Shown: positions 10,628 through 59,570 of the stretch, in pieces
Layout of the letters: each line of letters begins with the position of its first letter
How positions within the stretch are numbered: position 1 is the first letter of the stretch
Program-made: the position numbers and the translations under genes
Source: Insolitispirillum peregrinum
Lineage (GTDB): Bacteria; Pseudomonadota; Alphaproteobacteria; Rhodospirillales; Rhodospirillaceae
Assembly: GCF_900156605.1 (NCBI RefSeq)
Contig: NZ_FTOA01000003.1
Span: forward strand, 310,001 to 374,000
Reading direction: 5' to 3'
DNA: 64,000 nucleotides
The notes under the pieces: generated by a model
What the model was told of the DNA's origin: nothing
What the model saw: only the letters and a program-made list of their open reading frames with translations
The model's database searches: none

Positions 10628-10642
10628 TAGACTGATCGTCTA
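10628..10642. promoter_or_regulatory. AcuR-type operator, site 2
   Basis: Perfect inverted repeat TAGAC-TGATC-GTCTA in the 50-base gap between the TetR gene and acuI. It matches the site upstream of the TetR gene at 14 of 15 positions, which strongly suggests both bind the same repressor. Confidence 0.75.
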
Positions 10643-10659
10643 GAGACTGGTAAAAAAAC

Positions 10660-44055: not shown

Positions 44056-44706
44056 ATGATCAAAAGGACGCCCGCTTCCGTGCCTGATCCAATCTATGCC
44101 CCTCCCGCTGTGTCTGCGCAGTCTTCGGCGCGGGATCGTTTGCTCGCCAGTGCCCAGCGCTTGCTGTGGGAGCTGGGCTATGACGCAATGAGCCCCCGGA
44201 TGGTGCTGGAGGATTCCGGCGTCGGGCAGGGCAGTCTGTACCATCACTTCAAGACCAAGAAAGACCTGGCCCATGCCGCGCTGGAGGGGATCACCGATAG
44301 CCTGATTGCGCGGGCCGATGAGATCTTGCGGGCATCGGAACGCCCGCCGTTGCAGCGCATCAGGGACTGGCTGTCGGTGCCCCGCGATGCCCTGAAGGGC
44401 TGCCGGGTCGGGCGGCTGGTCAATGAGCAGGCGATCCACGATGCGGCCATCGGCGATCCGGTGGGACGGTACTTTGTGGCGGTGCAGGCAGCGTTGCGCG
44501 ATGCGCTGGAGGATGCCCGCCAAACGGGCGAGCTGCGCCCTGACGTTGACGCGGTGGCGGTGGCGGCCATGCTGGTGGCAGCGGTGCAGGGCGGCTATGT
44601 GCTGGCGCGGGGCAGTGGGGACCCGGTGGCGCTGCAGGCGGCCTTGAAAGGGGCGTGGCAGCTTTTGGAAGGACTGGCCGGTGAAAAATATCAAAAACAG
44701 GGTTGA
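44056..44706 (+). CDS. TetR family transcriptional regulator
   Basis: This 216-residue regulator has a TetR DNA-binding domain (ARDRLLASAQRLLWELGYDAMSPRMVLEDSGVGQGSLYHHFKTKKDLAHAALEGI) and a ligand-binding domain. The C-terminal part is TetR_C_16/LmrA-like, with GCRVGRLVNEQAI in the middle. Start 44056 is preferred; an ATG at 43996 has a good GGAGG site but adds a hydrophobic stretch not expected in TetR proteins. As the last gene of the MFS-GST operon it probably represses that operon at the 42126-42149 palindrome. Confidence 0.85.
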   Translation: MIKRTPASVPDPIYAPPAVSAQSSARDRLLASAQRLLWELGYDAMSPRMVLEDSGVGQGSLYHHFKTKKDLAHAALEGITDSLIARADEILRASERPPLQRIRDWLSVPRDALKGCRVGRLVNEQAIHDAAIGDPVGRYFVAVQAALRDALEDARQTGELRPDVDAVAVAAMLVAAVQGGYVLARGSGDPVALQAALKGAWQLLEGLAGEKYQKQG

Positions 44707-44731
44707 CGTTCTTTTTTTGTTCGCGTAATGT
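44703..44731 (+). promoter_or_regulatory. Candidate promoter at the left edge of the phage cassette
   Basis: TTGACG (44703-44708), a 17-base T-rich spacer and TAATGT (44726-44731). It begins at the tetR stop codon and points into the terminase genes, with a terminator-like hairpin in between. Confidence 0.5.
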
Positions 44732-44774
44732 CGCATTATACAGACTGAGGTAATTCTGTCTGGGTCGATTTCAC

Positions 44775-44810
44775 AAAGCCGCCCGCCCGTGTCTCACGGC
44801 GGGCGGCTTT
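44775..44810. terminator. Strong hairpin before the phage cassette
   Basis: AAAGCCGCCCGCC (44775-44787) pairs perfectly with GGCGGGCGGCTTT (44798-44810), 13 bp. It would end transcription from the tetR operon and insulates the phage genes from it. Confidence 0.75.
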
Positions 44811-44831
44811 GCTTTGTGGAGGAAGATGCGG

Positions 44832-45311
44832 ATGGGGAACGAACAGACCATCCAGCGCAGGGGGCGTGCGGCGGCACAGCGAAAGGCATTTCTGGCGGCG
44901 CTGTCCGACGGGCTGAGCGTCAGTGGGGCGGCCCGGCAGGCCGGTGTGGCGCGGGGAACCATGTATTACTGGCGGGAGGAAGACCCCGGGTTTGCGGCAG
45001 ACTGGAAAGAGGCGGAAGAAGCCGGGGCCGATGCGCTGGAAGACGAAGCCCTGCGGCGGGCGGTGTCGGGATTGGTCGAGCCGGTGTTTTACGGCGGCAA
45101 GGAAGTCGGCGAGGTGCGGAAATATTCCGATAGCCTGCTGGTGTTTTTGCTGAAAGCCCGCCGTCCTGACAAATACCGCGATCGGGTCAGCACGGAAGTC
45201 TCGGGGCCCCATGGTGGGCCGGTTGAGTTGAGTGACACCGAACGCGAGGCGCGGATCCAGTCCTTGCTGGCGCTGGCAGCCGAACGATCGGGGGCGAAAC
45301 AGGGGTTCTGA
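44832..45311 (+). CDS. Phage terminase small subunit-like protein
   Basis: This 159-residue protein has an N-terminal helix-turn-helix (FLAALSDGLSVSGAARQAGVARGTMYYWREEDPGFAADW) typical of terminase small subunits. A helical middle (EAEEAGADALEDEALRRAVSGL), FLLKARRPDKYRDRV and a tail complete the family layout. It would recognise phage DNA and start packaging together with the large subunit. Either ATG 44826 or ATG 44832 is possible; 44832 has better spacing from GGAGG. It opens the cassette and lies 96 bases before terL. Confidence 0.78.
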   Translation: MGNEQTIQRRGRAAAQRKAFLAALSDGLSVSGAARQAGVARGTMYYWREEDPGFAADWKEAEEAGADALEDEALRRAVSGLVEPVFYGGKEVGEVRKYSDSLLVFLLKARRPDKYRDRVSTEVSGPHGGPVELSDTEREARIQSLLALAAERSGAKQGF

Positions 45312-45407
45312 TCATCAGGTTGGTTTTCCGCCAACGTCCGCGTGTGATGAGAGCTTCATCATGGCGGGCTTTTTGTTGTCCCGATGGGGTGAAAACGAGA
45401 CACCAAG

Positions 45408-46931
45408 ATGAAGAGCGACAGTGTGAAGCACCTGCTCGCCCACCTGACCCCCGATGAGCTGGCCGAGCTGGACAGCCTGCTGACGGTGGGCAAGGTGTGG
45501 ATGCCGCTGCCGGGGCCGCAGGCGGTGGCCTATGACAGCCGGGCCGATGTGATCGGCTACGGCGGGTCTGCTGGCGGCGGGAAAACCGATCTGGCCCTGG
45601 GGATGGCGCTGACGAAACACACCGTCAGCGCCATTTTTCGTCGCGAGGCGACCCAGTTGCACGGGATCATTGAACGCCTTGCCGAGCTGCGGCAGGGCCG
45701 TGACGGCTATAACGGTTCGGAAAAAATCTGGCGTCTGGGTGATGGCAAGCGGATCGAGTTCGGATCAGCCCCCAATGCGGGCGATGAAACCCGCTATCAG
45801 GGTCGCCCGAAAGACCTGTTGGTGATCGACGAGGCAACCAACTTTCTGGAACAGCAGGTTCGCTTTCTCATGGGCTGGGTGCGCACCACCATCCCCGGCC
45901 AGCACTGCCAGACGTTGATGACCTTCAACCCGCCGACCAATGCCGACGGGCAATGGATCATCGCCTTTTTTGCCCCGTGGCTGGACCGCACACACCCCAA
46001 CCCGGCGCAGGCCGGAGAGGTGCGCTGGTTCGCCAGCCTGGACGGGCGCGACGTGGAACTGACCAGCCCCGAGCCGTTCAGCCACAACGGCGAACTGATC
46101 AAGCCGCAGTCGCGCACCTTCATTCCGTCGCGCATCACCGACAACCCCTATCTGATGGGAACCGGCTACATGGCAACGCTGCAATCTTTGCCCGAGCCGT
46201 TGCGCTCGCAGATGCTGCACGGCGACTTTACCGCCGGGCTGGAGGATGACGCCTATCAGGTGATTCCGTCGGCGTGGGTGATCGCGGCACAGGACCGTTG
46301 GCAGCCGCGTGATGTGTCCGGCAAAGGTCCGATGGACAGCATGGGGGTGGACGTGGCGCGTGGTGGGCGCGATGAGACAGTGATCGTCCGCCGTCACGGG
46401 GCATGGTTTGACGAACTGGTGACCCATCCGGGCAGCGCCTCGCCCGATGGTCCCAGTGTGGCGGCGCAGGTGCTGGCGGTGCGGCGCGATGCTGCCCCGG
46501 TCCACATCGACGTGGTCGGCTGGGGAGCCAGTCCGTTCGACTTCCTGCTGTCGAACGGGGTGCAGACGCTGGGCATCAACGGGGCGTCAAAGTCCCATGG
46601 CACCAGCCGCGAGGGCGGGTTGCGCTTTGTCAACCGCCGCGCCGAAGTGTGGTGGCGGCTGCGTGAGGCGCTTGACCCCTTAAGCCCGCAACCGCTGGCC
46701 CTGCCGAAAGACCCGCGCCTGCGGGCTGATCTGTGCGCCCCGAAATGGACGCTGGGAACCGGCGGCATCCAGATTGAAAGCAAGGACGACATTATTGCCC
46801 GGCTGGGCCGCTCGCCTGACCGGGGCGATGCGGTGGCGCTGGCGCTGATTTCCACCCTGAAAGACAACGTGCGGGCGTCGGCTCCGGCCTTTGCGGTCGG
46901 GGCGGACTATGACCCCTTTGGAGGACAGTAA
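45408..46931 (+). CDS. terL: Phage terminase large subunit
   Basis: This 507-residue packaging motor has an N-terminal ATPase with Walker A GGSAGGGKT (residues 52-60) and Walker B LLVIDEAT (137-144). The C-terminal RuvC-like nuclease has acidic residues at Asp315 in MGVDVARGGRDETVIV, in VHIDVVGWGASPFDFL and in SPDRGDAVALALIS. All expected catalytic residues are present, so packaging and cleavage could work. The upstream gap holds a small TGATGAGAGCTTCATCA hairpin. Confidence 0.93.
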   Translation: MKSDSVKHLLAHLTPDELAELDSLLTVGKVWMPLPGPQAVAYDSRADVIGYGGSAGGGKTDLALGMALTKHTVSAIFRREATQLHGIIERLAELRQGRDGYNGSEKIWRLGDGKRIEFGSAPNAGDETRYQGRPKDLLVIDEATNFLEQQVRFLMGWVRTTIPGQHCQTLMTFNPPTNADGQWIIAFFAPWLDRTHPNPAQAGEVRWFASLDGRDVELTSPEPFSHNGELIKPQSRTFIPSRITDNPYLMGTGYMATLQSLPEPLRSQMLHGDFTAGLEDDAYQVIPSAWVIAAQDRWQPRDVSGKGPMDSMGVDVARGGRDETVIVRRHGAWFDELVTHPGSASPDGPSVAAQVLAVRRDAAPVHIDVVGWGASPFDFLLSNGVQTLGINGASKSHGTSREGGLRFVNRRAEVWWRLREALDPLSPQPLALPKDPRLRADLCAPKWTLGTGGIQIESKDDIIARLGRSPDRGDAVALALISTLKDNVRASAPAFAVGADYDPFGGQ

Positions 46932-46932
46932 G

Positions 46933-47145
46933 ATGGGATTGTTTGGCGGCAGCAGCGCCACCCCGACGGTGGCAACGATCACTCCGACCAAGGCGGCAAG
47001 CATGGCTGATAGCGCCGTGCAGGACGCCTATGCGGCGTCGCGCAAACGCTATAGCGCGGCGGGCACCAACACCACCGTTCTGACCAGTGGCAGCGGGGCT
47101 AGCGGGGCCACCACCACCGGCGGCAAGACCCTGCTGGGCCAGTAA
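46933..47145 (+). CDS. Small phage protein of unknown function
   Basis: This 70-residue protein (MGLFGGSSATPTVATITPTK...TTGGKTLLGQ) is rich in Ala, Thr, Ser and Gly. A GGAGGACAGTAAG ribosome-binding site precedes it, one base after the terL stop. Similar short proteins often sit between terminase and portal in podoviruses. I see no domain. Confidence 0.7.
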   Translation: MGLFGGSSATPTVATITPTKAASMADSAVQDAYAASRKRYSAAGTNTTVLTSGSGASGATTTGGKTLLGQ

Positions 47146-47146
47146 G

Positions 47147-48964
47147 ATGGAAACGCTTCTCCAAAAGGCGCAGCCCCCCTCCGGTGCCGCCCCGCCGCGT
47201 CCGGTGCCGCCGCGCCCACCGGCGACCAAAACCATCAGCGTCTCCCCCGCCGAGGCCACCCGCATTCGCCAGCAGGTGCAACAGCGCCACGCCGCCCTGA
47301 AGTCCGAGCGCGAAAGCTGGGTCGATCACTGGCGGCAGGTGTCGGACGTGGTTCTGCCGCGCCGGGGGCGGTTCCTGACCAGCGACCGCAACAAGGGCAG
47401 CCGCCGGAACCGCAAGGTGATCGACAACACTGCCACGCTGGCGTTGCGTGATCTGGCCTCGGGGTTAATGGGCGGGGTCACCTCTCCGGCCCGCCCGTGG
47501 TTCCGCCTGTCCACCCAGCGGCCCGGCCTGATCGAAGACGGTGACGCCAGTCGCTGGCTGGCGGACGTCGAGCGGCTGATGCGGGAAATCTTCAACCGCT
47601 CGAACACCTACAACGCCCTGTTCTCGGTCTATGAGGAACTGGCCGCGTTCGGAACGGCGGCGATGCTGGTCTATGAGGATTACGATACCGTTATCTCCTG
47701 CGAAACCCTGACTGCCGGGCAGTACTGCGTTGCCCCCGACAAGCACGGGCGGGTGCATGCCCTGTACCGTGACCACGCGATGACCGTCGAACAGGTGGTG
47801 CAGGAGTTCGTTGAAACCGCGCCTGGCGATTATGACTGGTCGGTTGTCTCTGACGCGGTGCGCCAGCAGTGGGAGCGCGGCCAGCGTGACGGCTGGGTGG
47901 ACGTGGTGCAGGCCATCGAGCCGAACCCCGACCACCGTCCGGACAGCAAGCTAGCCCGTCATGCCCGGTTTCGTTCGCTGTGGCTGGAAGTCGGTGGCCG
48001 GCCTGACCGGCTGTTGCGGCTGTCGGGCTTTCAGGAGTTTCCCGCCCTCTGTCCGCGCTGGAACATCGCCGGGGCGGACATCTACGGCACCTCACCGGCG
48101 ATGGACGCGCTGGGCGATGTTGAACAGTTGCAGATGCAGGAACGCGAAAAGGCCAAGGCCATTCAAAAGATGGTCAACCCGCCACTGAACGTGCCGACCA
48201 GCACCCAGCGCAATGCGGTGGTCAATGCCCTGCCCAACGGCATCACCTATTTCGACCCGACCAGCGGTGGCACCACGGCGGCGATGGCAACGCCGCTGTA
48301 TCAGGTGCAGCCGCGGGTGATGGAATTGCAGCAGGACATGGAAATTGTCCGCCAGCGTGTGCGGTCAGCGTTCCATGCCGATCTGTGGCGGATGATCACC
48401 GACCTGGACCGCTCGGGCATCACCGCCACCGAGGTTGACGCCCGGCGGGAAGAAAAGCTGGTGATGCTGGGTCCGGTACTGGAGCGACTGCATCACGAGC
48501 TGCTGGACCCGCTGATTGACCGCACCTTTGCCATTGCCCAGCGGGCGGGCATCCTGCCGGAGATTCCCGAGGTGTTGGGCGGGCAGGATATCCGCGTCGA
48601 GTACATTTCGATGCTGGCGCAGGCTCAGCGGGCGGTGGCGATCAACGGTATCGAGCGGATGGTGGGCTTTGTCGGCCAGTTGGCGCAGATGGACCCGTCG
48701 GTGCTCGACAAACTGGATCGTGATCAGGCAGTGGACGAAGTGGCCGAAGCTATCGGTGCGCCGCCCCGACTGATCCGCTCTGATACCGAGGTGGGCCAGA
48801 TGCGCGAGCAACGGGCGCAGGCGCAGGCCCAGCAAGCGCAGGCGCAACAGCAGATGGCGATGATGCAGCAGGTGGCGCAGGGGGCGCAAACCCTGTCGCA
48901 GACTGACACCAGCGGGCAGAACGCCCTGACCGACCTGCTGGCGCTGACCGGGGGGGTGTTGTGA
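47147..48964 (+). CDS. Podovirus portal (head-to-tail connector) protein
   Basis: This 605-residue protein resembles head-to-tail connecting proteins of T7/BPP-1-type podoviruses. The conserved start RHAALKSERESWVDHWRQVSDVVLPRRGRFL leads into NTATLALRDLASGLMGGVTSPARPWFRL. The middle contains the FGTAAMLVYEDYD and AGADIYGTSPAMDALGDVEQLQ segments. A Gln/Ala-rich coiled-coil barrel (~560-590) precedes the C-terminus. It forms the dodecameric ring through which DNA is packaged. It begins one base after the preceding stop and overlaps the next ATG. Confidence 0.9.
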   Translation: METLLQKAQPPSGAAPPRPVPPRPPATKTISVSPAEATRIRQQVQQRHAALKSERESWVDHWRQVSDVVLPRRGRFLTSDRNKGSRRNRKVIDNTATLALRDLASGLMGGVTSPARPWFRLSTQRPGLIEDGDASRWLADVERLMREIFNRSNTYNALFSVYEELAAFGTAAMLVYEDYDTVISCETLTAGQYCVAPDKHGRVHALYRDHAMTVEQVVQEFVETAPGDYDWSVVSDAVRQQWERGQRDGWVDVVQAIEPNPDHRPDSKLARHARFRSLWLEVGGRPDRLLRLSGFQEFPALCPRWNIAGADIYGTSPAMDALGDVEQLQMQEREKAKAIQKMVNPPLNVPTSTQRNAVVNALPNGITYFDPTSGGTTAAMATPLYQVQPRVMELQQDMEIVRQRVRSAFHADLWRMITDLDRSGITATEVDARREEKLVMLGPVLERLHHELLDPLIDRTFAIAQRAGILPEIPEVLGGQDIRVEYISMLAQAQRAVAINGIERMVGFVGQLAQMDPSVLDKLDRDQAVDEVAEAIGAPPRLIRSDTEVGQMREQRAQAQAQQAQAQQQMAMMQQVAQGAQTLSQTDTSGQNALTDLLALTGGVL

Positions 48965-49275
48965 TGCAGGAACTTCCCTTTGCCATTGACGCCCCCGAGC
49001 AGGAACAGCGCCGCAAGGACAAGGCCAGCGAAGCCGCCGAGCGTGACGCCGCCGACCTGCGGGCGGTGCTGGCGCTGCCCGAGGGCCGCCGTCTGCTGGC
49101 CGCGCTGATTGCGCAGGCGGCACCGCTGGCGACCACCTTTCAGGCCGACCCGCTGACGATGGCCTTCCGCGAGGGCCACCGCAACGCCGGTCTGGCCCTG
49201 ATTGCCCGCATCAGCCAGACCGCGCCGGAGTATCTGGCCGGGCTGGTATTCCAGAACCAAGACACAACGGAGTAA
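48964..49275 (+). CDS. Bbp19 family phage protein
   Basis: This 103-residue protein carries the family core DLRAVLALPEGRRLLAALIAQAAPLATTFQADPLTMAFREGHRNAGLALIARI, matching proteins named after gene bbp19 of Bordetella phage BPP-1. Its role is not known. The ATG overlaps the portal stop (TGATG). Together with the Bbp17- and Bbp16-like proteins it ties this cassette to the BPP-1 type of podovirus. Confidence 0.82.
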   Translation: MQELPFAIDAPEQEQRRKDKASEAAERDAADLRAVLALPEGRRLLAALIAQAAPLATTFQADPLTMAFREGHRNAGLALIARISQTAPEYLAGLVFQNQDTTE

Positions 49276-49283
49276 TCCCGACC

Positions 49284-49871
49284 ATGGACCCCATTGCCAC
49301 CACCACCGCCCCGGAAGCCCCGGCGGCGGCTCCTGCTGCTGCGCCTGCGCCTGTGCCTGCGGCGGTTGAGATTGCGGCTCCTGAGGCGCCCACCCTGCTC
49401 GGGGCACTGTCTGCTGAAACTGCTCCTGACTACTCGGCCCTGGCCTTGCCCGAAGGGGCTACCGCCGATCCGGCGACCATGGACGCCTTCAAGGCGGTTC
49501 TGGGCGAACACAAGCTGCCGACCGAAAGCGCGCAAAAGCTGCTCGATCTGCATTTGCAGACTTTGCAGGCCCAGCAGCAGCAGATGCAACAGACCGTTGC
49601 TGGCTGGGCGCAACAGGTCGGGAATGACCCGGAAATTGGCGGTTCAGGGCAGGAGCAGGCCCTTGGGCTGGCCCGGCAGGCGCTGGATACCTATGGCTCG
49701 CCGGAGCTGATCAGCGTGCTGAATGATACCGGCCTTGGCAATCACCCGGCGGTGATCCGCGCCTTTTACCGCATGGGCAAGGCCATTGCCGAAGACGGGC
49801 GCAAGGGGCCGAGCCATGGTGTTGCCCCTGACCCGCTGCGGGCGCTGTATCCGACCATGTTCAAGGACTGA
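49284..49871 (+). CDS. Probable capsid scaffold protein
   Basis: This 195-residue protein has an Ala/Pro-rich N-terminus (residues 5-35) and a helical centre with a Gln-rich coiled-coil (SAQKLLDLHLQTLQAQQQQMQQTVAGWAQQV). The C-terminal region (GNHPAVIRAFYRMGKAIAEDG) is often seen in podovirus scaffold or protease-like proteins. Its position directly before the capsid gene supports a scaffolding role. There is no protease motif I can identify. Confidence 0.7.
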   Translation: MDPIATTTAPEAPAAAPAAAPAPVPAAVEIAAPEAPTLLGALSAETAPDYSALALPEGATADPATMDAFKAVLGEHKLPTESAQKLLDLHLQTLQAQQQQMQQTVAGWAQQVGNDPEIGGSGQEQALGLARQALDTYGSPELISVLNDTGLGNHPAVIRAFYRMGKAIAEDGRKGPSHGVAPDPLRALYPTMFKD

Positions 49872-49915
49872 TACCGGGTCGCCGACCAAACCCTCAAACA
49901 TAAGGACCAAATCCC

Positions 49916-50908
49916 ATGGCTACTCTCGCCAATACCAACCCGACCCTTGCCGATCTGGTGAAGGCCACCGACCCCGACGGCAGCATTGCCAGTGTGGTGG
50001 AAGTTCTGTCGCAGTCGAACGAAATCCTTGATGACATGACGTGGATTGAAGGAAACCTGCCGACCGGTCACCGGTCCACCATCCGCACCGGCCTGCCGGT
50101 GCCGACCTGGCGCAAGCTGTACGGCGGCGTGCAGCCCGCCAAGTCGGAACGGGTGCAGATCACCGACAATTGCGGCATGCTGGAAGCCTATGCCGAAATC
50201 GACAAGGCGCTGGCTGATCTGAACGGCAACACCGCCGCCTTTCGCCTGTCGGAAGACCGCGCCCACATCGAGGGCATGAGCCAGGCGATGGCGACGGCGC
50301 TGTTCTATGGCAATGAAACCACCACCCCGGCGGCCTTCACCGGGCTGGCCCCGCGTTACAACAGCCTGAGCGCCGAGAACGCCGACAACATCGTCTCGCA
50401 TGGCGGGTCTGGCAGCGACAATGCCTCGATCTGGCTGGTGGTGTGGGGGCCGGACTCGGTCCATGGCATCACGCCCAAGGGCAGCAAGGCCGGGTTGCAG
50501 AGCAGGGATCTGGGCGAAGTCACCGTCGAGGATGTCGATGGCAGCGGTGGCCGCATGCAGGCCTATCGCACGCATTATCGTTGGGATGCCGGGCTGACCG
50601 TGCGCGACTGGCGCTATGTGGTGCGCATCGCCAACATCGACGTCAGCGATCTGGGCACGCTGGCGAATACCAAAAACCTGATCACCTCGATGGTGATGGC
50701 CTCGGAACGTATCCCGGCGTTGGGCAAGGGCCGCGCCTGCTGGTACGTCAACCGCACCATCCGCGAAAAGCTGCGGCTGGGGATCACCGAAAAGATCGTC
50801 AACAACCTGAGCTGGGAAACCGTGGCGGGCAAGCGGGTGATGACCTTTGACGACATTCCGGTGCGTCGCTGCGACGTGCTGTTGAACACCGAAGCGGCTG
50901 TTTCGTAA
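49916..50908 (+). CDS. Major capsid protein (BPP-1 Bbp17-like)
   Basis: This 330-residue protein begins MATLANTNPTLADLVKATDPDGSIASVVEVLSQSNEILDDMTWIEGNLPTGHRSTIRTGLPVPTWRKLYGGV. That opening is characteristic of major capsid proteins of BPP-1-like podoviruses, which have an HK97-type fold. The stretch HIEGMSQAMATALFYGNETTTPAAFTGLAPRY is also typical. It forms the icosahedral shell and is followed by its cement protein gene. Confidence 0.88.
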   Translation: MATLANTNPTLADLVKATDPDGSIASVVEVLSQSNEILDDMTWIEGNLPTGHRSTIRTGLPVPTWRKLYGGVQPAKSERVQITDNCGMLEAYAEIDKALADLNGNTAAFRLSEDRAHIEGMSQAMATALFYGNETTTPAAFTGLAPRYNSLSAENADNIVSHGGSGSDNASIWLVVWGPDSVHGITPKGSKAGLQSRDLGEVTVEDVDGSGGRMQAYRTHYRWDAGLTVRDWRYVVRIANIDVSDLGTLANTKNLITSMVMASERIPALGKGRACWYVNRTIREKLRLGITEKIVNNLSWETVAGKRVMTFDDIPVRRCDVLLNTEAAVS

Positions 50909-50936
50909 CCGCCTCCTGCACGAAGGACACATCACG

Positions 50937-51383
50937 ATGATCATCGACACCCGAACCCAGTTCTGTTCCGCCATCGCGCTGAATACCGGCGCGGCGGGCA
51001 CCTACACCATTGGCGACGTGATCGACCTGAAAACCGCCGGGCTGGATATCGGCCACGGCGAGCCGCTGTATCTGGTGATTCAGGTCAGCACCACCGCCAC
51101 CTCCGGCGGGTCGGCCACTGCCACCTTCACCCTTGCCAGCGACAGCACCGCCAGCATCGCCACCGATGGGTCGGCCACCGTCCATTACACCACCGGGGCC
51201 ATCGCCCTGTCGGCGCTGACCGCCGGGACGATGGTGGCGGTGGTGGCCCTGCCGCAGGGCACCTATGAACGTTATTTCGGCCTGTTGCAGACCACCGGCA
51301 CTGCGGCCTTTACCGCTGGCAAGATCAACGCCTTCCTGACCCTCAACCCGCCGAAGTGGAAGGCCTATTCCGACGGCATCTGA
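50937..51383 (+). CDS. Bbp16 family capsid cement protein
   Basis: This 148-residue beta-rich protein is full of Thr, Ser, Ala and Gly (MIIDTRTQFCSAIALNTGAAGTYTIGDVIDL...). It fits the Bbp16 cement proteins that decorate and stabilise BPP-1-type capsids, and it lies directly after the capsid gene as in BPP-1. Confidence 0.83.
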   Translation: MIIDTRTQFCSAIALNTGAAGTYTIGDVIDLKTAGLDIGHGEPLYLVIQVSTTATSGGSATATFTLASDSTASIATDGSATVHYTTGAIALSALTAGTMVAVVALPQGTYERYFGLLQTTGTAAFTAGKINAFLTLNPPKWKAYSDGI

Positions 51384-51448
51384 ATCTGGTCCTGATGTGT
51401 GTTGCGGCCCCTGCCATCCGGCGGGGGCTTTTGCTTTTGGAGGTTTGA

Positions 51449-51634: not shown

Positions 51635-51638
51635 GGGT

Positions 51639-52262
51639 ATGGCTGTCTCTCCGGTTTCTGTCTGCTCGATGGCCCTGACACGTCTGGGGGGGCAGCCGAT
51701 TGCCTCGCTGTCCGAAGGTTCGAAAGAGGCCATCCTGTGCAGCGCCTTTTACGAGCTGTCGCGGGATGCCACCCTGCGCGATCACCCGTGGAACTTTGCC
51801 ACCCGCCGCCGGGCGCTGGCGATGTTGTCCAGTGGCGGCACCGATGGCGATGCGGCCATTCCGTGGGCCTGGATCTATGGCTGGCCGTCTGATTGCCTGC
51901 TGGCCCGGCGCATCCACAACCCCGGCAGCACCACCGTTGCCATCCCCTATGAGGTGGCGCTGAACAGCAGCGGCGAGCGGGTGATCTATACCGATCAGGC
52001 CACCGCCACGCTGGTTTATACCACCCGCGTCACCGACCTGACTCTGTGCGACCCGCTGTTCATCGAGGCGATGACGTGGAAGCTGGCCACCGAACTGGCG
52101 ATCCCGCTGACGCAGGACCGGGGGCTGATGCAGGTGGCAACCACCATGTACCAGAACGCCATCGCCAAGGCCCGCACGCTGGATGCCAACGAAGGCAGTG
52201 CCGACGACCTCAGCCAAGCGAGCTGGATGGAAGCGCGTTTGGGATACCAAAGCCTTTATTAG
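51639..52262 (+). CDS. Tail tubular adaptor protein (gp11-like)
   Basis: This 207-residue protein has the opening SPVSVCSMALTRLGGQPIASLSEGSKEAILCSAFYELSRDATLRDHPWNFATRRRALA, characteristic of podovirus tail adaptor (tail tubular A) proteins that dock beneath the portal. The C-terminal helix (FIEAMTWKLATELAIPLTQD) is also typical. Start 51639 follows the stop of the preceding gene by four bases. Confidence 0.82.
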   Translation: MAVSPVSVCSMALTRLGGQPIASLSEGSKEAILCSAFYELSRDATLRDHPWNFATRRRALAMLSSGGTDGDAAIPWAWIYGWPSDCLLARRIHNPGSTTVAIPYEVALNSSGERVIYTDQATATLVYTTRVTDLTLCDPLFIEAMTWKLATELAIPLTQDRGLMQVATTMYQNAIAKARTLDANEGSADDLSQASWMEARLGYQSLY

Positions 52263-52380
52263 CATGCCCTCAGGCGCCGGGCGCAGGCTCCGCCTGCTGG
52301 GCTCACGCGCCACTGGGCGCGACGCGCAGTCGCGCTTGCCTCGGCGGAGCGGACCGCCTCGGATTTAAGGAAAATCCTCC
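52263..52380. repeat. GC-rich hairpin cluster inside the phage operon
   Basis: These 118 bases without a gene contain three consecutive stem-loops: CAGGC-TCC-GCCTG, GCGCGAC-GCGCA-GTCGCGC and GGCGG-AGCGGA-CCGCC. The rest of the cassette is almost gapless. The hairpins resemble REP-type elements rather than a standard terminator, since no T tract follows. Confidence 0.6.
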
Positions 52381-54777
52381 ATGACCCAACGGATGTTCAT
52401 TCCCAGCTTTGCCGGGGGCGAGCTGTCGCCCGCGATGTATGGCCGGGTTGACCTCAGCAAGTACGCCATCGGCCTGCGGCGGTGCCGCAATTTTCTGGTC
52501 CATCGCACCGGTGGAGTGTCCAACCGGGCGGGCTTTCGCTTTCTGGGGACGGTGGCCGATGAGGATGTGGTGCCGACGCTGGTGCCGTTCCGCTTCAACA
52601 CCAGCGCCGATCAGGTGGCAATCCTTGAGTTCGGCGATTACACCATGCGCATCTGGTATCAGGGAGCGCTGATCACCGATGACAGCGATGATGTGCTGGT
52701 GGTGGCGACCCCTTACGCCGCCGCTGAGGCCGCAGTTATGGGGCGGGTGCAGTCCGGTGACGTAATGTATCTGGCCCACCCGAGCCATCCGCCGCAAAAG
52801 CTGTCGCGCACCGCCTGGGACGAGTGGAGCTTTGACGAGCTGGATTTTGTGCCGAAGTTCGAGTTGCCGACGGCTGGAGGCACCAGTTGGCGGCTGACCA
52901 AGGTACGGCAACCGAATGGCGTGAGCTTCATGCGGCCCAGCGCAAAGGGGGGCGTGATCACCATGACCACCCTGACCAGTAATCTGACGCCTTTTGCGGG
53001 ATGGCAAACCGACGATGTCGGGCGGATTGTGAAATACATGGATAGCGGTGAAATCTTTGTCACCGCCGTGTCTTCTGACCGCATCACTGCCACCGGGACC
53101 GTGCTGGGCGTTCTGCCATCGACTGAAGTTGCATTTTATGAACAATGGTCGGTCTGGGCCTATCAGTTGAGCGGCTCGACCACCGCATGGTCGGCGGCGC
53201 TGTCTGGCTCGACGCATACCTATACCGAAACGATCACCTACAAGATCACCGCCATTTCCGAAGAAACCGGCGAAGAAAGCCTGCCGTCCGATCCGGTATC
53301 CATCCTCGGCCCGACCGCTGACGACTGGCCGGTGGGAACCAAGATGATCCTCACCGGCCCGGCCAGTGGCGATACGGTGGCCTATTACCGGGTCTATAAG
53401 GAACAGAACGGTATGTACGGCTATGTCGGGCTGGCCGCCGAGGGCGAGTTCACCGACGACAACAAGACCCCGGATATTTCCGACGGCCCACCCGATGCCC
53501 GCAACCCGTTTGCCGACGAAGGCGATTACCCGGCGCTGGTCACCATTCACCAGCAACGACTGTGCTTTGCTGCCACCACCAACACTCCGAACGGGGTGTG
53601 GATGTCGCGCACCGGCTTTTTCGAGAACTTTTCCGTTGCCACCCCGACCAAGGACGATGACGCCATCACCTTTGCCATCGGATCGGGTGAAATCAACGCC
53701 GTGCGCGGGCTGGTGTCGGTCAATGACCTGATCATTCTGACCGCAGGCAGCGAGAACGTTTGTACCGGTGGCGGGACTGGCTCTGCCCTGACTCCGACCA
53801 GCATTACCGTCAAGCCACAATCCTATTGGGGCGGTGGTGATTTGCAGCCGCTGGTGTCGGGGAACCGGGCGCTGTTCATTCAGGAAATGGGCAGCGCGGT
53901 GCGCGATCTGGGCTATGAATACAGCGTCGACGGCTTCAAGGGGGCAGACCTCAGCGTGATGGCCCGCCACCTGCTGGATGGTCACAGCGTTGTTTCGTGG
54001 GCCTATGCGCAGGTGCCGGATTCGACGTTCTGGCTGGTGCGCAGCGACGGGGCGCTGTTGAGCCTGACCTATTTCAACGAACAGGAATTACAGGCGTGGG
54101 CCCTGCACACCACCCCCAACGGTTCTTTCGAGCGAGTGGCGGTGATCGAAGGTGAGGGCCGCCACGATCTGTATGCAGTGGTCCGGCGGACGGTGGATGG
54201 TGTGGAGCGGCGGTTCATCGAGCGACTGGCCCGCCGGCGGCTGGACACGATCAGTGACGCGGCGTTCCTCGATAGCCACCTGACCTACAGCGGCAGCGCG
54301 ATCAGCAGCATCAGTGGGCTGGACCATCTGGAAGGGGAGACGGTCGGCATCATGGCCGATGGCACGGTACTGGATGATGCCGTGGTCAGCGGCGGAGCCA
54401 TCAGCCTGCCGCGCGGGTTTTCGCAGGTGGTGGTCGGGCTGCGCTATGACGCCGACAGCGTGATTGAAACGCTGGATATCGACCTGGGGGCGGTGCAAGG
54501 ACTGGGCAGCGTGCAGGGCCGAAAAAAGAGCCTGACCGGTGCGACCATCCGCCTTGAGCAGTCGCGTGAGTTTTACGCCGGTCCCGACGATACCCACCTG
54601 ACGCTGACCAAGGTGACGCCATCGGTCTATGACGCCCCGCCGGACCTGTTCACCGGCGACGTGTCGTTGATGATTTCCCCGACGTGGAACAAGACAGGCC
54701 GGATCGTGCTGAAACCCGCCGGGCCGGTGCCGCTGACGGTGCTGGCAATCGCCCCGGACATCACCATCGGAGGATAA
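52381..54777 (+). CDS. Tail nozzle protein (tail tubular B-like)
   Basis: This 798-residue protein starts TQRMFIPSFAGGELSPAMYGRVDLSKYAIGLRRCRNFLVHRTGGVSNRAGFRFLG, the classic beginning of T7 gp12-like nozzle proteins. Long beta-rich repeats follow. The segment ITYKITAISEETGEESLPSDPVSI suggests a fibronectin-like insertion near residue 280-310. It forms the distal tail tube and carries fibres or spikes. Confidence 0.87.
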   Translation: MTQRMFIPSFAGGELSPAMYGRVDLSKYAIGLRRCRNFLVHRTGGVSNRAGFRFLGTVADEDVVPTLVPFRFNTSADQVAILEFGDYTMRIWYQGALITDDSDDVLVVATPYAAAEAAVMGRVQSGDVMYLAHPSHPPQKLSRTAWDEWSFDELDFVPKFELPTAGGTSWRLTKVRQPNGVSFMRPSAKGGVITMTTLTSNLTPFAGWQTDDVGRIVKYMDSGEIFVTAVSSDRITATGTVLGVLPSTEVAFYEQWSVWAYQLSGSTTAWSAALSGSTHTYTETITYKITAISEETGEESLPSDPVSILGPTADDWPVGTKMILTGPASGDTVAYYRVYKEQNGMYGYVGLAAEGEFTDDNKTPDISDGPPDARNPFADEGDYPALVTIHQQRLCFAATTNTPNGVWMSRTGFFENFSVATPTKDDDAITFAIGSGEINAVRGLVSVNDLIILTAGSENVCTGGGTGSALTPTSITVKPQSYWGGGDLQPLVSGNRALFIQEMGSAVRDLGYEYSVDGFKGADLSVMARHLLDGHSVVSWAYAQVPDSTFWLVRSDGALLSLTYFNEQELQAWALHTTPNGSFERVAVIEGEGRHDLYAVVRRTVDGVERRFIERLARRRLDTISDAAFLDSHLTYSGSAISSISGLDHLEGETVGIMADGTVLDDAVVSGGAISLPRGFSQVVVGLRYDADSVIETLDIDLGAVQGLGSVQGRKKSLTGATIRLEQSREFYAGPDDTHLTLTKVTPSVYDAPPDLFTGDVSLMISPTWNKTGRIVLKPAGPVPLTVLAIAPDITIGG

Positions 54778-54781
54778 GGCC

Positions 54782-55249
54782 ATGCGGCCAATCAGGATTG
54801 TTGCCGCGCAGGATTATCACCTGCGCGATCTGGCCCGTCGTCTGCGTGCCGGTGACCGGGCCGAAGTGGCGGCGCTGGGCTATCCCGATCCGCTGCCAGG
54901 CATTCGCGCCAGTGCGGCGGCGTCGCTGTGGGTGAAGGCCGGAGTGATCGACACTCGCCGGGGCGAACGAGTGCTGGCTGTGTGGGGGCTGGGGGCGGTG
55001 GCCGGTGAGCCGGACGTGGGCGGGCCGTGGCTGCTGTCCACCCGGTCAATCGAACGCTACCGCAGTGCCCTGCTGCGCTACGCCAAGGCCGAGATACCGG
55101 CCATGCACCAGCGATTTCCCATCCTGCGCGGGGTCGTCGATGCCCGTTATGCCGGGGCGGTGCGCTGGATCGGCTGGATGGGGTTTCAGTATGGGCCGCC
55201 GATGGAGATCAACGGTGTGCCGTTTCTGCCTTTTGAACGGAGGGTGTGA
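54782..55249 (+). CDS. Phage internal protein, DUF2833/gp13-like
   Basis: This 155-residue protein resembles DUF2833 phage proteins with a GNAT-like fold. It has RIVAAQDYHLRDLARRLRAGDRAEVAALG at the start, RGERVLAVWGLGAVAG in the middle, and IERYRSALLRYAKAEIPAMHQRFPILRGVVDARYAGAVRWIGWMGFQYGPPMEINGVPFLPF at the end. In T7-like phages the equivalent gp13 supports internal core assembly. No acetyl-CoA motif is obvious. Confidence 0.72.
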   Translation: MRPIRIVAAQDYHLRDLARRLRAGDRAEVAALGYPDPLPGIRASAAASLWVKAGVIDTRRGERVLAVWGLGAVAGEPDVGGPWLLSTRSIERYRSALLRYAKAEIPAMHQRFPILRGVVDARYAGAVRWIGWMGFQYGPPMEINGVPFLPFERRV

Positions 55250-55752
55250 TGGGATTGATGGAAGCAAGCTTGCTGACAATGGGGACCGTTCTGTCGGCTG
55301 CGGACAGCATTCGACAAGGGAATCAGCAGGCGGCGCAGGCCCGTTATCAGGCCGACATGGCGACCAACAACGCCAACATCGCCCGGCAGAACGCTGCCGA
55401 TGCAGTGACGGCTGGTAAGGCCGAAGAGCAGCGGCAGCGTATTACCAACAGCCAGAAGATAGGGAGTATGCGCGCTCAGATGGGGGCTTCGGGGGTGGAT
55501 AGCGGAATGGGGTCTGCGTTGGATGGCAGTGCGGCTCTCTCAATGATGGGGGAAGCGGATGCCTTGAATGTGCGTGATGAGTGGTTGCGCAATCAGAACA
55601 GTTATTTGCAAAAGGCGAATGACTTCGGCAATCAGGCATCACTTTATGAGAACTCCGCAAGAAACAATAAAGCAAATGGGACCTGGAAGGGATCGGAAAG
55701 TTTGCTGTCCGGTGCGCGTAGCGTTGCCAACCGCTGGGTGTCTTTGATTTAG
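55249..55752 (+). CDS. Internal virion/ejection protein (gp14-like)
   Basis: This 167-residue protein begins MGLMEASLLTMGTVLSAADSIRQGNQQAAQARYQADMATNNANIARQNAADAVTAGKAEEQRQR. It matches the pattern of podovirus gp14-like ejection proteins: a short hydrophobic start and a long helix. The ATG overlaps the preceding stop. Its second half is noticeably AT-richer than the rest of the cassette. The large gp15/gp16-type partners expected next are absent. Confidence 0.75.
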   Translation: MGLMEASLLTMGTVLSAADSIRQGNQQAAQARYQADMATNNANIARQNAADAVTAGKAEEQRQRITNSQKIGSMRAQMGASGVDSGMGSALDGSAALSMMGEADALNVRDEWLRNQNSYLQKANDFGNQASLYENSARNNKANGTWKGSESLLSGARSVANRWVSLI

Positions 55753-55858
55753 ATTGTTCTTGATTTGACCATCTACGTTCAACCTTTTTTCGCCTGATAC
55801 GCCTTGGACGGTTTCATCGCAAGTGAGGCTGCATTCGGCTTTTGACTGAGGCATTCCC

Positions 55859-58570
55859 ATGACAGTACTGACTACAAGCAGCACCGTTTCCTATCAGGGG
55901 AACGGGGCAACGAAGTCGTTCGACTTTGCGTTCAAGGTGCCGGTGGGTGCGCTGCTCATCACCATTACCGCTGCTGATGGAACGGAGAGGACCCCGGTTG
56001 AGGGGACCTATACCGTGACTGGCTATGGCAGTCCCAACGGTGGTTTTGTGACGCTTTCTACTGCTCCGGCGGTGGGTGAAACGGTGACGCTGGCCCGGCA
56101 AGTGGATTTTCTGCAGGAAGTCGCCCTGAGCACCGGGGGGGCTTTTTACGCGGAAGTGATCGAGGCGGAGCTTGATCGTCTGACGATGGTCGACCAGCAA
56201 CTACGGGAAGGTCTGGCGCGGGCGGTGAAAGTCCCGGTCGGTTCTGGCGATACGCCGGAAGCGGTTATGGAAACGTTACTGGGTGCCAGTGATGCCGTAG
56301 CCGTTGCGGCGGCCGCAGCGGCGGCCTCGGCGGTGACGGCAGAGGCCGCCGCCGAAGTTGCCTCGACCGCTGCCGGAGGGATTGTCGGTGTCTCTGTCGG
56401 GTGGTGGGGCGCCATCCCGGACGGCGTGCAACTGTCAACGGCAACGATGACCGCTGGTAGTCCGGTTTTGACGGCCAGCGATACGGTGTTCAGTGCTGAT
56501 GATGTGGGCAAGCTGGTGGTGGTTAATGGTGCCGGTGCCAATGGAGCGCCGCTGTACAGTACCATTACCGGCTGTAGCTCGGAGATGATGGTCTCGCTGG
56601 CGTCGGCTGCCGGAACCAGCGTAAGAAATGCCGAAGCGACCTATGGCACAGATCAGCATGCGGCGATCCAGAGCGCCTGTACCGCCACCTGCGGGGGAGC
56701 GATTTTCATTCCGGCAGGCATTTACATGCTGTCGGCGCCGGTTGTCCTGCCGATTGCCGCCGCGACATCCGCTTCGCAGGTGGTTGTCTCGCGGGTGCTG
56801 GGGGCCGGGATGAGCCTCACGTCTCTGGTTTGTGCGGGGGATTTTTATGCGCTGACCTATTCAGCCGGTGCGACGTTTACCGAGCTGGGCGAACTGGCAT
56901 GGCTGCGCATTCAGTCGGAGTATGGGGTAAAAATTGGCGACCGTACCGCTCTGACCACCGACGCGGGCGGGGGGGGTGCGTACAAGCAGCGTTGGTGGTG
57001 CCATCACGTCGAATTCCGTTCGCACGGGGCGGGCAGCGGGATCGGTATTGATGCCGCCAAGCTGTTCAAGTTTGCCATCACCAATTGCCATTTCAGTGGT
57101 ATCGGCACAGGCATTTTGTTGTCCGGGTGTGATAATGGTCTGATCGAAAACAATTCGATCCGTGGTTCGCGTCGATACGGGATTTATGAGCGAAGTGCCG
57201 GGAATTTCGGTTCCCAGACCATCATCATGGGGAACGAAATCCTCGGGAATGCGGACCCCAGCGCGATTTACATCAAGTCCAACAGTCGCCATGTGTCGAT
57301 TATCGACAACTATCTTGAATGCGATTTCCACGCCGTCACCATCGACCTGACCGATATCGACGCCCCGGCGTGGTTTGGGGCGAACATCGCCCAGGGGCCA
57401 TATACAATTGTTGTCCGGGACAACCGCATCGAGGGCGGCAATAACGCATCGGTCGCCCAGTACCGTGTCAACCGCGACCGGGCCTTTTCAGTGGTTATTG
57501 ATGACCGTTGGCAGGGCGGTGCGAACTGGGGGGCGGGTCTGTGGACAGACAATTCCGGGGCTGTTGTCGATAGCATCAGGCCCGCCATCAATGGCGTCTC
57601 TTCCTTGACCCTTGTCCTGGGGGAGAGTGGCCGGTGCTTTGGCGAACAGTGGGCCAACTTCAGGACGACTTCCCGGCAGCAGGTAACCAACGGGCGGTTG
57701 GTCATGCCCGCCACCGACACCCGCGCGGCCAACACGGCGGTTGATGCCAACTTTGCCTTGCGCGTGCGGGGAACACGCTGGGTGCTGCCTGCGGGGTGGT
57801 CGTCGTCTGATCCGGCCCGGCTGTACTGGCAGGGCACCGGAGCCGACAAACTGTTGACCGCCGGACGGCAGTACAAAATGAGCCTGCTGGCCCGCACCAC
57901 CTATGCTTCGGGCGGGGATGTGCTGGTAGCTGGCTATGGCTCCGGCGGGTCAATCTTCAATACCAGCTCGTTTACCCTCGCCAGCGATTTCAAGCGGTTC
58001 GAGTTCTATTTCACACCGTCGGTGGTGTCGGGGCCATTTGTCTCGCTGGGGGCCAGCACCTCGCTGGGGGATATCGAGGTTGCCGATATCACCATCGAGC
58101 AGCCGGTGGTCAGTGGTACCCCGGCGTTTTCGGCACGGGTCAACACCACGATCAGCAATACGACCGGGGCTGGCACGTCCTACAACGTGGTGCCAGAGAC
58201 AGCAAACCACAATCCGGGCGGCTATTACAATGCTTCGACCGGCATCTTCACCGCCCCGGCCACGGGGCGGTACTGGCTGTCAGCAGCAGTGCGTCTGGGG
58301 GGCATCACCAGTGCTCATACACTGGCGCTGCTGCGTATCTTGACCAGCAATCGCAGCTATCAGATCGAATTCAACCCCTATGCCGGGCTGACCTCTGACG
58401 GGCGATACAGCACCGCCCTGTCTGTCGAAGCCGATATGGATGTGGGTGATACCGCCTTTGTGCAGATAGTTGTTTTTAACGGCACCGCTGCGGTGTCGGT
58501 GATTGGCGGCAACAATTACCAGAGCTGTTTTCAAGGCCGCCTGATCGAAATCGGAGGGGCAACATGGTGA
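55859..58570 (+). CDS. Tail spike with beta-helix and C1q-like C-terminus
   Basis: This 903-residue receptor-binding protein has three parts. Residues 1-120 resemble a T7-type fibre attachment domain (SSTVSYQGNGATKSFDFAFKVPVGALLITITAADG...VTLARQVDF), followed by an Ala-rich coiled segment (~140-170). Residues ~180-560 form a pectate-lyase-type parallel beta-helix (GVSVGWWGAIPDGV...GTDQHAAIQSACTATCGGAIFIPAGIY, then NNSIRGSRRYGIY and DNYLECDFHAV). The end (~750-900) is C1q/TNF-like (GGYYNASTGIFTAPATGRYWLSAAVRL). It probably binds and may cut surface polysaccharide. Confidence 0.82.
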   Translation: MTVLTTSSTVSYQGNGATKSFDFAFKVPVGALLITITAADGTERTPVEGTYTVTGYGSPNGGFVTLSTAPAVGETVTLARQVDFLQEVALSTGGAFYAEVIEAELDRLTMVDQQLREGLARAVKVPVGSGDTPEAVMETLLGASDAVAVAAAAAAASAVTAEAAAEVASTAAGGIVGVSVGWWGAIPDGVQLSTATMTAGSPVLTASDTVFSADDVGKLVVVNGAGANGAPLYSTITGCSSEMMVSLASAAGTSVRNAEATYGTDQHAAIQSACTATCGGAIFIPAGIYMLSAPVVLPIAAATSASQVVVSRVLGAGMSLTSLVCAGDFYALTYSAGATFTELGELAWLRIQSEYGVKIGDRTALTTDAGGGGAYKQRWWCHHVEFRSHGAGSGIGIDAAKLFKFAITNCHFSGIGTGILLSGCDNGLIENNSIRGSRRYGIYERSAGNFGSQTIIMGNEILGNADPSAIYIKSNSRHVSIIDNYLECDFHAVTIDLTDIDAPAWFGANIAQGPYTIVVRDNRIEGGNNASVAQYRVNRDRAFSVVIDDRWQGGANWGAGLWTDNSGAVVDSIRPAINGVSSLTLVLGESGRCFGEQWANFRTTSRQQVTNGRLVMPATDTRAANTAVDANFALRVRGTRWVLPAGWSSSDPARLYWQGTGADKLLTAGRQYKMSLLARTTYASGGDVLVAGYGSGGSIFNTSSFTLASDFKRFEFYFTPSVVSGPFVSLGASTSLGDIEVADITIEQPVVSGTPAFSARVNTTISNTTGAGTSYNVVPETANHNPGGYYNASTGIFTAPATGRYWLSAAVRLGGITSAHTLALLRILTSNRSYQIEFNPYAGLTSDGRYSTALSVEADMDVGDTAFVQIVVFNGTAAVSVIGGNNYQSCFQGRLIEIGGATW

Positions 58571-58773
58571 CGATGACCGACGACCAGCGGGCGGTACTGG
58601 CCCATGTGGTGACTGATCCTGATGGCTGGTTGGCCCATGCCGTTGATGCCTTGGGCGAGGCCGGGGCACAGTCCGCCCTTGAGGCGAAAGTATCGCGTTG
58701 GCAGGCCGACTATCTGGCTGCGCTGGCCGATGAAGGGGGGGCATACCGCCCCCGCGCAAAGCGCGAAGAGTGA
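58564..58773 (+). CDS. Small phage protein
   Basis: This 69-residue protein (MVTMTDDQRAVLAHVVTDPDGWLAHAVDALG...) overlaps the spike gene by seven bases and has a GGAGG site inside the spike C-terminus. Its pattern suggests a short helical assembly protein. I cannot assign a function. Confidence 0.65.
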   Translation: MVTMTDDQRAVLAHVVTDPDGWLAHAVDALGEAGAQSALEAKVSRWQADYLAALADEGGAYRPRAKREE

Positions 58774-58784
58774 AGGGAGCAATC

Positions 58785-58970
58785 GTGAGCGCAAAGGTTT
58801 TGGACGGGACAGCCGTCGCGACGGCGGTTTCGGCTCCGGCATGGGCGCCGGGGCTTGATGCGATCAACGGCTGGCTGACGCTGGTCAGCCTGCTGGCCGG
58901 GTTGGTGTTTCTGGCATGGCGGTGGCGGCGGTTGTCGCGGCTGACGCCCGATTTGAAAGAGGAAGCGTGA
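58785..58970 (+). CDS. Small membrane protein, holin-like
   Basis: This 61-residue protein starts at GTG 58785, with AGGGAGC five bases before. It has one clear membrane helix (LTLVSLLAGLVFLAWRW) followed by a basic RRLSRL patch and an acidic end. Position directly before the lysozyme gene, with its stop overlapping the lysozyme ATG, supports a role in lysis, as holin or pinholin. Confidence 0.62.
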   Translation: MSAKVLDGTAVATAVSAPAWAPGLDAINGWLTLVSLLAGLVFLAWRWRRLSRLTPDLKEEA

Positions 58971-59380
58971 TGAATCTGGACCTGTTGAAAAAAGAACTTG
59001 TGCGCGATGAAGACGAGCGGCTCAAGCCCTACCGCTGCACGGCGGGCAAGTTGACTATCGGTGTCGGCCGCAATCTGGATGATGTCGGCCTGTCGGTGGA
59101 TGAATCCGCCTATCTGCTGGGTAACGACATTGCCCGCGTGATGGCGGAGTTGGACAAGGCTTTACCGTGGTGGCGGGGGCTGTCCGAAGTCCGGCAACGG
59201 GCGCTCGCCAACATGGCCTTTAACCTCGGGGTGCCGCGCCTGAAGGGCTTTGCCCGCATGCTGGCCGCCTTGCAGGCCGGGCAGTGGGATGAGGCGGCGA
59301 CGCAGGCTTTGGCCAGCAAGTGGGCGGTGCAGGTGGGCGACCGCGCGAAGCGTATTGCCACCATGATCAAGGAAGGGTGA
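58970..59380 (+). CDS. Phage lysozyme/endolysin (GH24, T4-type)
   Basis: This 136-residue muramidase begins MNLDLLKKELVRDEDERLKPYRCTAGKLTIGVGRNLDDVGLS. The catalytic E...D/T arrangement of T4-type lysozymes is seen in the ELVRDEDERLKPYRCTAGKLTIGVG block. The conserved RQRALANMAFNLGVPRLKGFARMLAAL follows. It has no signal peptide or SAR helix, so it depends on a holin to reach the peptidoglycan. Confidence 0.9.
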   Translation: MNLDLLKKELVRDEDERLKPYRCTAGKLTIGVGRNLDDVGLSVDESAYLLGNDIARVMAELDKALPWWRGLSEVRQRALANMAFNLGVPRLKGFARMLAALQAGQWDEAATQALASKWAVQVGDRAKRIATMIKEG

Positions 59381-59385
59381 AACAC

Positions 59386-59565
59386 ATGAACAAGGCTCTG
59401 TTGAAAGATTACCTGATCGCCCGCCTGAAGGAGCGGTCCACGTGGGTCGGCCTGATTGGCCTGCTGTCGGTGCTGGGCGTGGCCCTGTCGCCGGAGCAGG
59501 CCGAGGCGATTGCTACTGCCGGGGTTGCTGTTGCCGGTGTGCTGGGGGTGGTCACGCGGGGGTGA
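59386..59565 (+). CDS. Small hydrophobic phage protein, holin-like
   Basis: This 59-residue protein (MNKALLKDYLIARLKERSTWVGLIGLLSVLGVALSPEQAEAIATAGVAVAGVLGVVTRG) has two hydrophobic stretches around residues 20-35 and 42-56. The ERSTWVGL.GLLS..G pattern is typical of short holin-like proteins of alphaproteobacterial phages. It closes the phage cassette; five bases later begins the 3' end of mltG on the other strand. Confidence 0.68.
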   Translation: MNKALLKDYLIARLKERSTWVGLIGLLSVLGVALSPEQAEAIATAGVAVAGVLGVVTRG

Positions 59566-59570
59566 TGCCG

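Follow-up and report, generated by a model that had tools for sequence, protein, structure and literature searches.

The 64,000-nucleotide stretch of Insolitispirillum peregrinum DNA analysed here (the window; contig NZ_FTOA01000003.1, positions 310,001 to 374,000) raises the question of what purpose, if any, is served by a short-tailed phage cassette that encodes a particle and its release without recognisable genes for mobility, replication or control. Our tentative answer, to which we give slightly less than an even chance, is that it is a domesticated or semi-domesticated, probably gene transfer agent (GTA)-like, particle cassette of the epsilon15/BPP-1 type; judged from its gene content, it would then work like a GTA. 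This reading is carried by the large ejection genes that are missing from the same internal place in the cassette and in a sister copy (L105), and by purifying selection between the two. Domestication was among the options raised by an initial annotation of the locus, and it is the one that these two findings tentatively favour, in a collection with a single genome of the genus.

The module comprises about 15 kb of virion and lysis genes of an epsilon15/BPP-1-type podovirus, all its open reading frames (ORFs) being open, in an uninterrupted run with a single direction from terS at 44832 to a holin gene ending at 59565. PHROG and Pfam searches of the window ORFs gave the following assignments:

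44832-45311, plus strand: terS, small terminase with a helix-turn-helix (phrog_4044, 2.8e-39; PF20901, Sf6_terminase)
45408-46931, plus strand: terL, large terminase (phrog_979/phrog_2; no Pfam match; the sole TerL match in its own genome)
46891-47145, plus strand: small ORF (phrog_831), conserved in L105
47156-48964, plus strand: portal or head-tail connector (phrog_332, 9e-169; PF12236, 2.5e-168)
48961-49275, plus strand: small protein (phrog_528)
49284-49871, plus strand: scaffold or protease-like protein (phrog_458, 4.6e-36, labelled protease in PHROGs)
49916-50908, plus strand: major capsid protein (phrog_212, 1.4e-92)
50937-51383, plus strand: cement-like protein by its position, which is that of epsilon15 gp8 (phrog_427, function unknown in PHROGs)
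51449-51634, plus strand: small protein (phrog_590)
51636-52262, plus strand: tail tube A-like protein (phrog_394, 2.5e-55)
52381-54777, plus strand: nozzle or tail tube B-like protein (phrog_376, 7.3e-193; PF25675 below its cut-off)
54782-55249, plus strand: internal virion protein in the position of epsilon15 gp13 (phrog_308, 2e-22)
55246-55752, plus strand: internal virion protein resembling T7 gp14 (phrog_418, 8e-18; PF24072, 4.9e-4, below its cut-off)
55753-55858, no strand: junction where relatives have the large ejection genes, 106 bp without trace of them in the comparison with relatives
55859-58570, plus strand: tail spike with a phage tail-fibre N-terminus matching BPP-1 Bbp9, a beta-helix and a C1q-like C-terminus (PHROG and Pfam, C1q below its cut-off)
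58564-58773, plus strand: small ORF conserved in L105, without PHROG match
58770-58970, plus strand: small membrane ORF, a holin candidate from the L105 comparison and a hydrophobic stretch seen by eye, without PHROG match
58970-59380, plus strand: phage lysozyme, the endolysin (PF00959, 3.2e-11)
59386-59565, plus strand: small holin-like protein (phrog_8494, 2.8e-07; phrog_297 holin, 1.8e-04), its stop codon 5 bases from that of mltG

The initial annotation had described an ordered podovirus cassette fitting tightly between intact host genes and encoding a catalytically complete TerL, a description borne out by these assignments, whose order is that of epsilon15 gp1-gp14, and by the neighbouring tetR and mltG, both of which read through in the ORF list. 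The last base of the tetR stop codon is 44706; the mltG stop codon, on the minus strand, occupies 59571-59573. In TerL the stretches GGSAGGGKT and LLVIDEA were recognised by eye, which we take to be Walker A-like and Walker B-like motifs, together with GVDVARGG, HIDVVG and DRGDAVAL, presumably holding the acidic nuclease-like positions. Alternative starts exist for terS, upstream of its ATG at 44832 (44814 or 44826), and for the portal gene (47087). The base composition is close to that of the host, the G+C content at third codon positions (GC3) being 0.64-0.86 in 12 cassette genes and 0.69-0.79 in seven host genes.

Salmonella phage epsilon15 (Uetakevirus) shows the same succession of terS, terL, small gene, portal, small gene, scaffold/protease, capsid, cement, small gene, tail, nozzle, gp13 and gp14, and Bordetella phage BPP-1 (Rauchvirus), in a record that names its genes by number only, a similar layout; their portals are 43-46% identical to that of the window (46% for BPP-1). 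Gene order is thus colinear with modules of this type, whereas the large ejection proteins that follow the small internal-protein genes are lacking, as are repressor, early and tropism-switching genes. In the portal and nozzle trees the window groups with L105, two further loci (L106 and L108) and prophages of the genomes G178 and G184, joined in the portal tree by G028, and this group sits inside the one that contains epsilon15 and BPP-1. The G178 and G184 prophages share the gene order of the cassette (portal 55-56%, nozzle 50% and TerL 50% identical) but, unlike it, carry downstream ORFs of 697-1179 aa matching ejection proteins. The G184 prophage runs from RusA through terL, portal, tail, ejection genes, spike and lysozyme to a P4-type integrase in the reverse orientation; the window has host genes where this early region (left) and this integrase (right) would be expected. 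Genes in the genomes of relatives were called with a codon-bias script, conservation being used for two very GC-rich loci (L265 and L266). Prophage loci of the same type were L383, L272 and L384 in G184, which serves as template for what the cassette lacks, and L381, L271 and L382 in G178. Further upstream, G184 has a PF12684 nuclease-like gene and G178 has a YqaJ gene; a LysR-like gene intervenes, so that their membership of the prophages is ambiguous.

How unusual the internal gap is can be judged from a survey of loci drawn from viral, genome and phage searches, 62 of which match a nozzle of the cassette type. At least 4 kb downstream of the nozzle is visible in 25 of the 62, representing 23 distinct loci (two pairs are the same sequence), and these were compared with 11 ejection-region query proteins; five matching loci were themselves sources of queries, each being matched also by the query of another locus. 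A large ejection protein was found in 20 of the 23, the exceptions being the window (as L104), L105 and L148, the last with a nozzle matched only in part and some 2.4 kb left after its phrog_308 gene. Leaving aside the window and L105, 20 of the 21 distinct relatives for which sufficient sequence was available thus showed large ejection genes. Those of L108, L122, L169 and L181 match phrog_10475 (lytic transglycosylase type) and the giant phrog_9880. A tblastn search of the whole window and of L105 with 12 ejection-region proteins returned only the tail-fibre N-terminus of Bbp9, that is, the spike, and neither gp15-gp17 of epsilon15 nor Bbp11/Bbp10 of BPP-1 had a match in the window. Of 61 genomes searched, 5 match the phrog_9880 family, that of I. 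peregrinum not being among them; phrog_10475 matches in 58 of the 61, with the I. peregrinum matches confined to the transglycosylase domain in three proteins. The initial annotation, which had reported large ejection genes as missing, was right in this respect and is to be amended in that a small internal protein of the gp14 type is present at 55246-55752. Between this gene and the spike there are 106 bp in the window and about 0.3 kb in L105. The lack of ejection genes at this internal place is a robust feature shared by the two copies.

The sister copy comes from scans of 2.9 million IMG/VR contigs, designed for close relatives only, in which two such cassettes appeared, L104, identical to window positions 44832-59565, and the metagenomic L105 (IMGVR_UViG_3300004154_000369); scans with nozzle and spike returned these two only. 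L105, which stems from a different strain or species, preserves the gene order of the window, and its proteins are 65-99% identical. All 17 compared genes are open in both, with nonsynonymous and synonymous divergences (dN and dS) of 0.057 and 0.369 overall and a dN/dS of 0.154, ranging per gene from 0.027 in terL, the lowest, to 0.370 in the phrog_528 protein. The initial annotation had proposed dN/dS as a check, and the purifying selection on head and tail genes that a GTA should show is indeed seen, in a single pair in which phage and host selection are inseparable, the holin lies outside the comparison and the lysozyme gene is truncated where the contig stops. Neutral decay, which had been named as an alternative, is unlikely because L105 shares both the gene order and the internal loss and keeps all 17 genes open with a dN/dS of 0.15 at a dS of 0.37. 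L105 starts at the same terS ATG as L104, from which we infer that its left end is a provirus trim beside host DNA. Synonymous divergence is uneven along the pair: it is 0.12 in the phrog_308 gene and 2.1 in the adjoining phrog_418 gene. This abrupt change, between window positions 54782-55752 and L105 positions 10275-11254, likely marks a recombination boundary with a pool of related donors.

If the cassette is a domesticated particle, the ancestral prophage would have shed the early half at its left end, the integrase at its right end and, in between, the large ejection genes, these absences representing losses from a prophage like that of G184. Host control would read through the terminator of the leader described below and the cell would build capsids, which TerS and TerL would fill with any DNA that TerS accepts; since there is no phage replicon, the packaged DNA would be that of the host. 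Lysozyme and holin would release the particles by lysis, and the spike would bind or trim the surface polysaccharide of kin cells. Excerpts of PMC8954989 describe ejection proteins as required for podophage infectivity; because the large ones are missing here, the particle should not inject as a phage does. The GTAs of Alphaproteobacteria (RcGTA, CcGTA and BaGTA) are, like the cassette, made up of phage structural genes and do not propagate themselves; RcGTA and CcGTA are of the siphovirus type. By analogy with these agents, in a particle without a large trans-periplasmic conduit the DNA would get to the periplasm only, and a ComEC route in the recipient would be needed. For BaGTA, the part of PMC6899734 dealing with this step gives periplasmic delivery as probable, followed by import through ComEC, ComM, ComF and DprA, and RcGTA DNA enters via ComEC, ComF and ComM in excerpts of PMC10883770. 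The missing ejection genes can therefore be reconciled with a GTA-like role, and such a role may explain how they came to be dispensed with while TerL remained the most constrained gene.

Two features were found in the short leader between tetR and terS:

44703-44731, plus strand: candidate promoter found by eye (TTGACG, 17 nt, TAATGT), which overlaps the stop codon of tetR and is oriented towards the cassette
44774-44811, no strand: perfect 14-bp inverted repeat with a 10-nt loop, a terminator-like hairpin located after the candidate promoter and before terS (repeat scan and RNA fold)

The candidate promoter is weak, its -10 element having three of six consensus bases, and it is absent from the list of a promoter scan whose sole site (1 found, 3.5 expected), at 44762-44735 on the minus strand, is directed away from the cassette. 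RNA folding of 44740-44840 gave a z of -4.7, in a region where terminator-like sites are frequent (26 found, 13.7 expected). The hairpin may be the end of tetR transcription or may serve anti-termination control. The CcGTA cluster, of 14 kb, needs anti-termination past terminators according to excerpts of PMC11150451, a parallel that is no proof of shared control. The leader has no further significant copy in the genome, matching only its own inverted repeat and short stretches at E above 1, and no structured RNA reached the Rfam gathering score between 42 and 62 kb of the window. A second terminator-like hairpin lies at 51406-51429, between the cement-like and phrog_590 genes, and is a possible internal control point; the epsilon15 record likewise annotates terminators after gp9.

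Several observations weigh against domestication. With one genome of the genus in the collection, the cassette between tetR and mltG is known from that genome only. Capsid identity to phage-like contigs still reaches 81%, so that domestication, if real, would be young or partial. The uneven dS suggests phage-like recombination, and the right end of L105 lies inside the lysozyme gene, short of where an integrase might be. Unlike the GTAs named above, the cassette is known from its genes alone, with no regulator recognised among its ORFs and no particle or packaged DNA observed, and the leader promoter is weak.

The alternative that survives best is that an epsilon15-like prophage was truncated recently, deletions having removed its ends and its ejection genes, and that the remaining genes are intact for lack of time, L105 being a related and possibly complete prophage in a lineage under phage selection. 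We regard this as a serious alternative, with appreciably less than an even chance. The resemblance of the module genes to those of free phages, in the capsid and in the portal shared at 46% with BPP-1, the mosaic dS, the missing right side of L105 and a locus for which no homologue was seen and where the gene 3' of mltG varies among relatives would all be in keeping with it. On the other hand, L105 too is without ejection genes, unlike an ordinary infecting podophage, and yet its genes are open at a dS of 0.37; nor does the window hold debris of lost genes at the early-half, integrase and ejection sites, or an att scar. Direct repeats shared by the 700-bp flanks do not exceed 11 bp, a length expected by chance in the window, and a hidden att site was rejected, repeats being of chance length only. 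XerCD/dif-type integration was likewise rejected, no dif-like site being found with up to 3 mismatches. No clean empty site emerged from relatives: yicC lies within 1.5 kb 3' of mltG in some and not in others, and on another contig in I. peregrinum.

An intact temperate prophage would have an integrase with att sites and genes for repression, replication or recombination. As the initial annotation had it, the ORFs flanked by tetR and mltG include no recognisable integrase, repressor, replication or recombination gene. The 726-kb contig of the cassette (C15 in our numbering) has no PF00589 match, a search that concerned tyrosine and not serine recombinases. The rest of the genome, which the same annotation had proposed to search for integrases, has six tyrosine recombinase genes, all on other contigs, two of them looking like XerC/XerD, and no phage structural genes were seen by eye in the stretches around them. 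One of our loci, L241, probably holds a genomic island or decayed element: at about 9.5-15.6 kb (C3:282.5-288.6 kb of the genome) a tyrosine recombinase gene precedes a resolvase-like one and a sparsely coding stretch.

These six recombinases, together with the complete set of packaging and lysis genes, would suit a module that takes replication, integration and ejection from another phage or element, as a split or satellite-like system. We consider such dependence on a helper improbable. The genome has a single TerL and a single portal match, which leaves the helper suggested by the initial annotation without a same-type candidate (other phage types were not surveyed); the giant ejection family likewise found no match there, and neither the surroundings of the recombinases, two of which are Xer-like, nor the leader, which has no significant copy elsewhere, point to a partner. 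Head genes are dispensable in tailocins, and a bacteriocin-like killing particle, damaging competitors through its spike with DNA packaging incidental, is very improbable, for although spike and lysozyme genes are intact and under purifying selection and a delivery conduit is lacking, all head genes are kept, TerL, as befits DNA packaging, is the most constrained gene, and we know of no podovirus-type precedent.

The initial annotation had also remarked that a domesticated podovirus-type unit would be unusual for Alphaproteobacteria. This idea is better embodied by another cluster, missing from the I. peregrinum genome, than by the cassette itself. We found this separate podovirus-type cluster of about 15 kb at 19 loci (L251-L269) and 17 more (L274-L290) of Alphaproteobacteria. 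It starts with an oppositely oriented S24 regulator, followed by two small genes, the portal (PF12236), a small gene and a scaffold-like gene, continues with a PF19821 capsid of about 272 aa, an 89-aa protein, a tail protein, nozzle and fibre, and ends with TerL, a small membrane protein, a SleB-type hydrolase and a PF11351 holin; families were tested mainly on L269, some genes went unseen at individual loci and several loci run off the fetched stretch. No integrase was noticed among its gene calls, for which no profile search was made, and no large ejection genes were found in three loci tested (L257, L269 and L275).

The PF19821 capsid matches in 156 of the 317 genomes of the order (120 of the 212 of good quality) and, in some cases weakly, in 90 of 385 genomes of a class sample, with zero matches in I. 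peregrinum; the nozzle profile, which also takes in the window and prophages of the BPP-1 type, matches in 160 of the 317 (126 of the 212). Taking G261-G289 as the whole sample of genus g104, all 29 genomes have the capsid and 28 also a nozzle match. Nine of ten other capsids aligned were 65-80% identical to the first sequence, and one 56%. Under midpoint rooting the portals form one clade (15/15, support 1.0), as do the nozzles (16/16, 0.997), apart from the group of the window, and dN/dS was 0.11-0.15 in five pairs. The flanks of eight g104 loci fall into several groups, conserved within groups and not between them; strict vertical descent is therefore not shown. Homologues reach 48% identity in a named phage (Pelagibacter phage EXVC031P) and 58% in an unannotated faecal record, and none was found on plasmids. 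The cluster resembles the cassette in size, podovirus type, lysis genes and the lack of a recognised integrase and, in the three loci, of large ejection genes, and differs from it in the PF19821 capsid, terL near the end, the S24 regulator and the separate portal and nozzle clade; membership of the cassette in this cluster was rejected, capsid family and clade being different and the window grouping with BPP-1-type phages. At two g104 loci (L263 and L264) a TetR-type regulator lies a few kb from the cluster, comparable to the window tetR and possibly by chance, such regulators being common.

From its sequences, the class-wide cluster is a strong candidate for a podovirus-type GTA not yet described, and a better one than the cassette. 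No description of a podovirus-type GTA was found in the open-access literature searched, which is not proof of its absence from print. In the part of the GTA-Hunter table seen in PMC6821227, Rhodospirillales, Azospirillales and Acetobacterales have zero rows, which we read as no RcGTA-like clusters. It is tempting to speculate, though we hold it to be unlikely in this general form, that podoviruses have repeatedly become domesticated in Alphaproteobacteria through removal of their large ejection genes, which turned them into short-tailed GTAs that rely on the periplasm and ComEC uptake; the cassette would be a young, independent case of the epsilon15 type and the S24/PF19821 cluster an older one, established throughout the class, possibly where RcGTA-like clusters are zero.

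Should the cassette produce particles that are filled with DNA but lack the large ejection proteins, it would amount to a short-tailed device for gene transfer, and it would indicate which step in podovirus infection can be omitted where DNA import is provided by the recipient. The cassette may also stand near the beginning of a transition from prophage to cellular tool, a stage that can be compared with the wider cluster conserved across the class.

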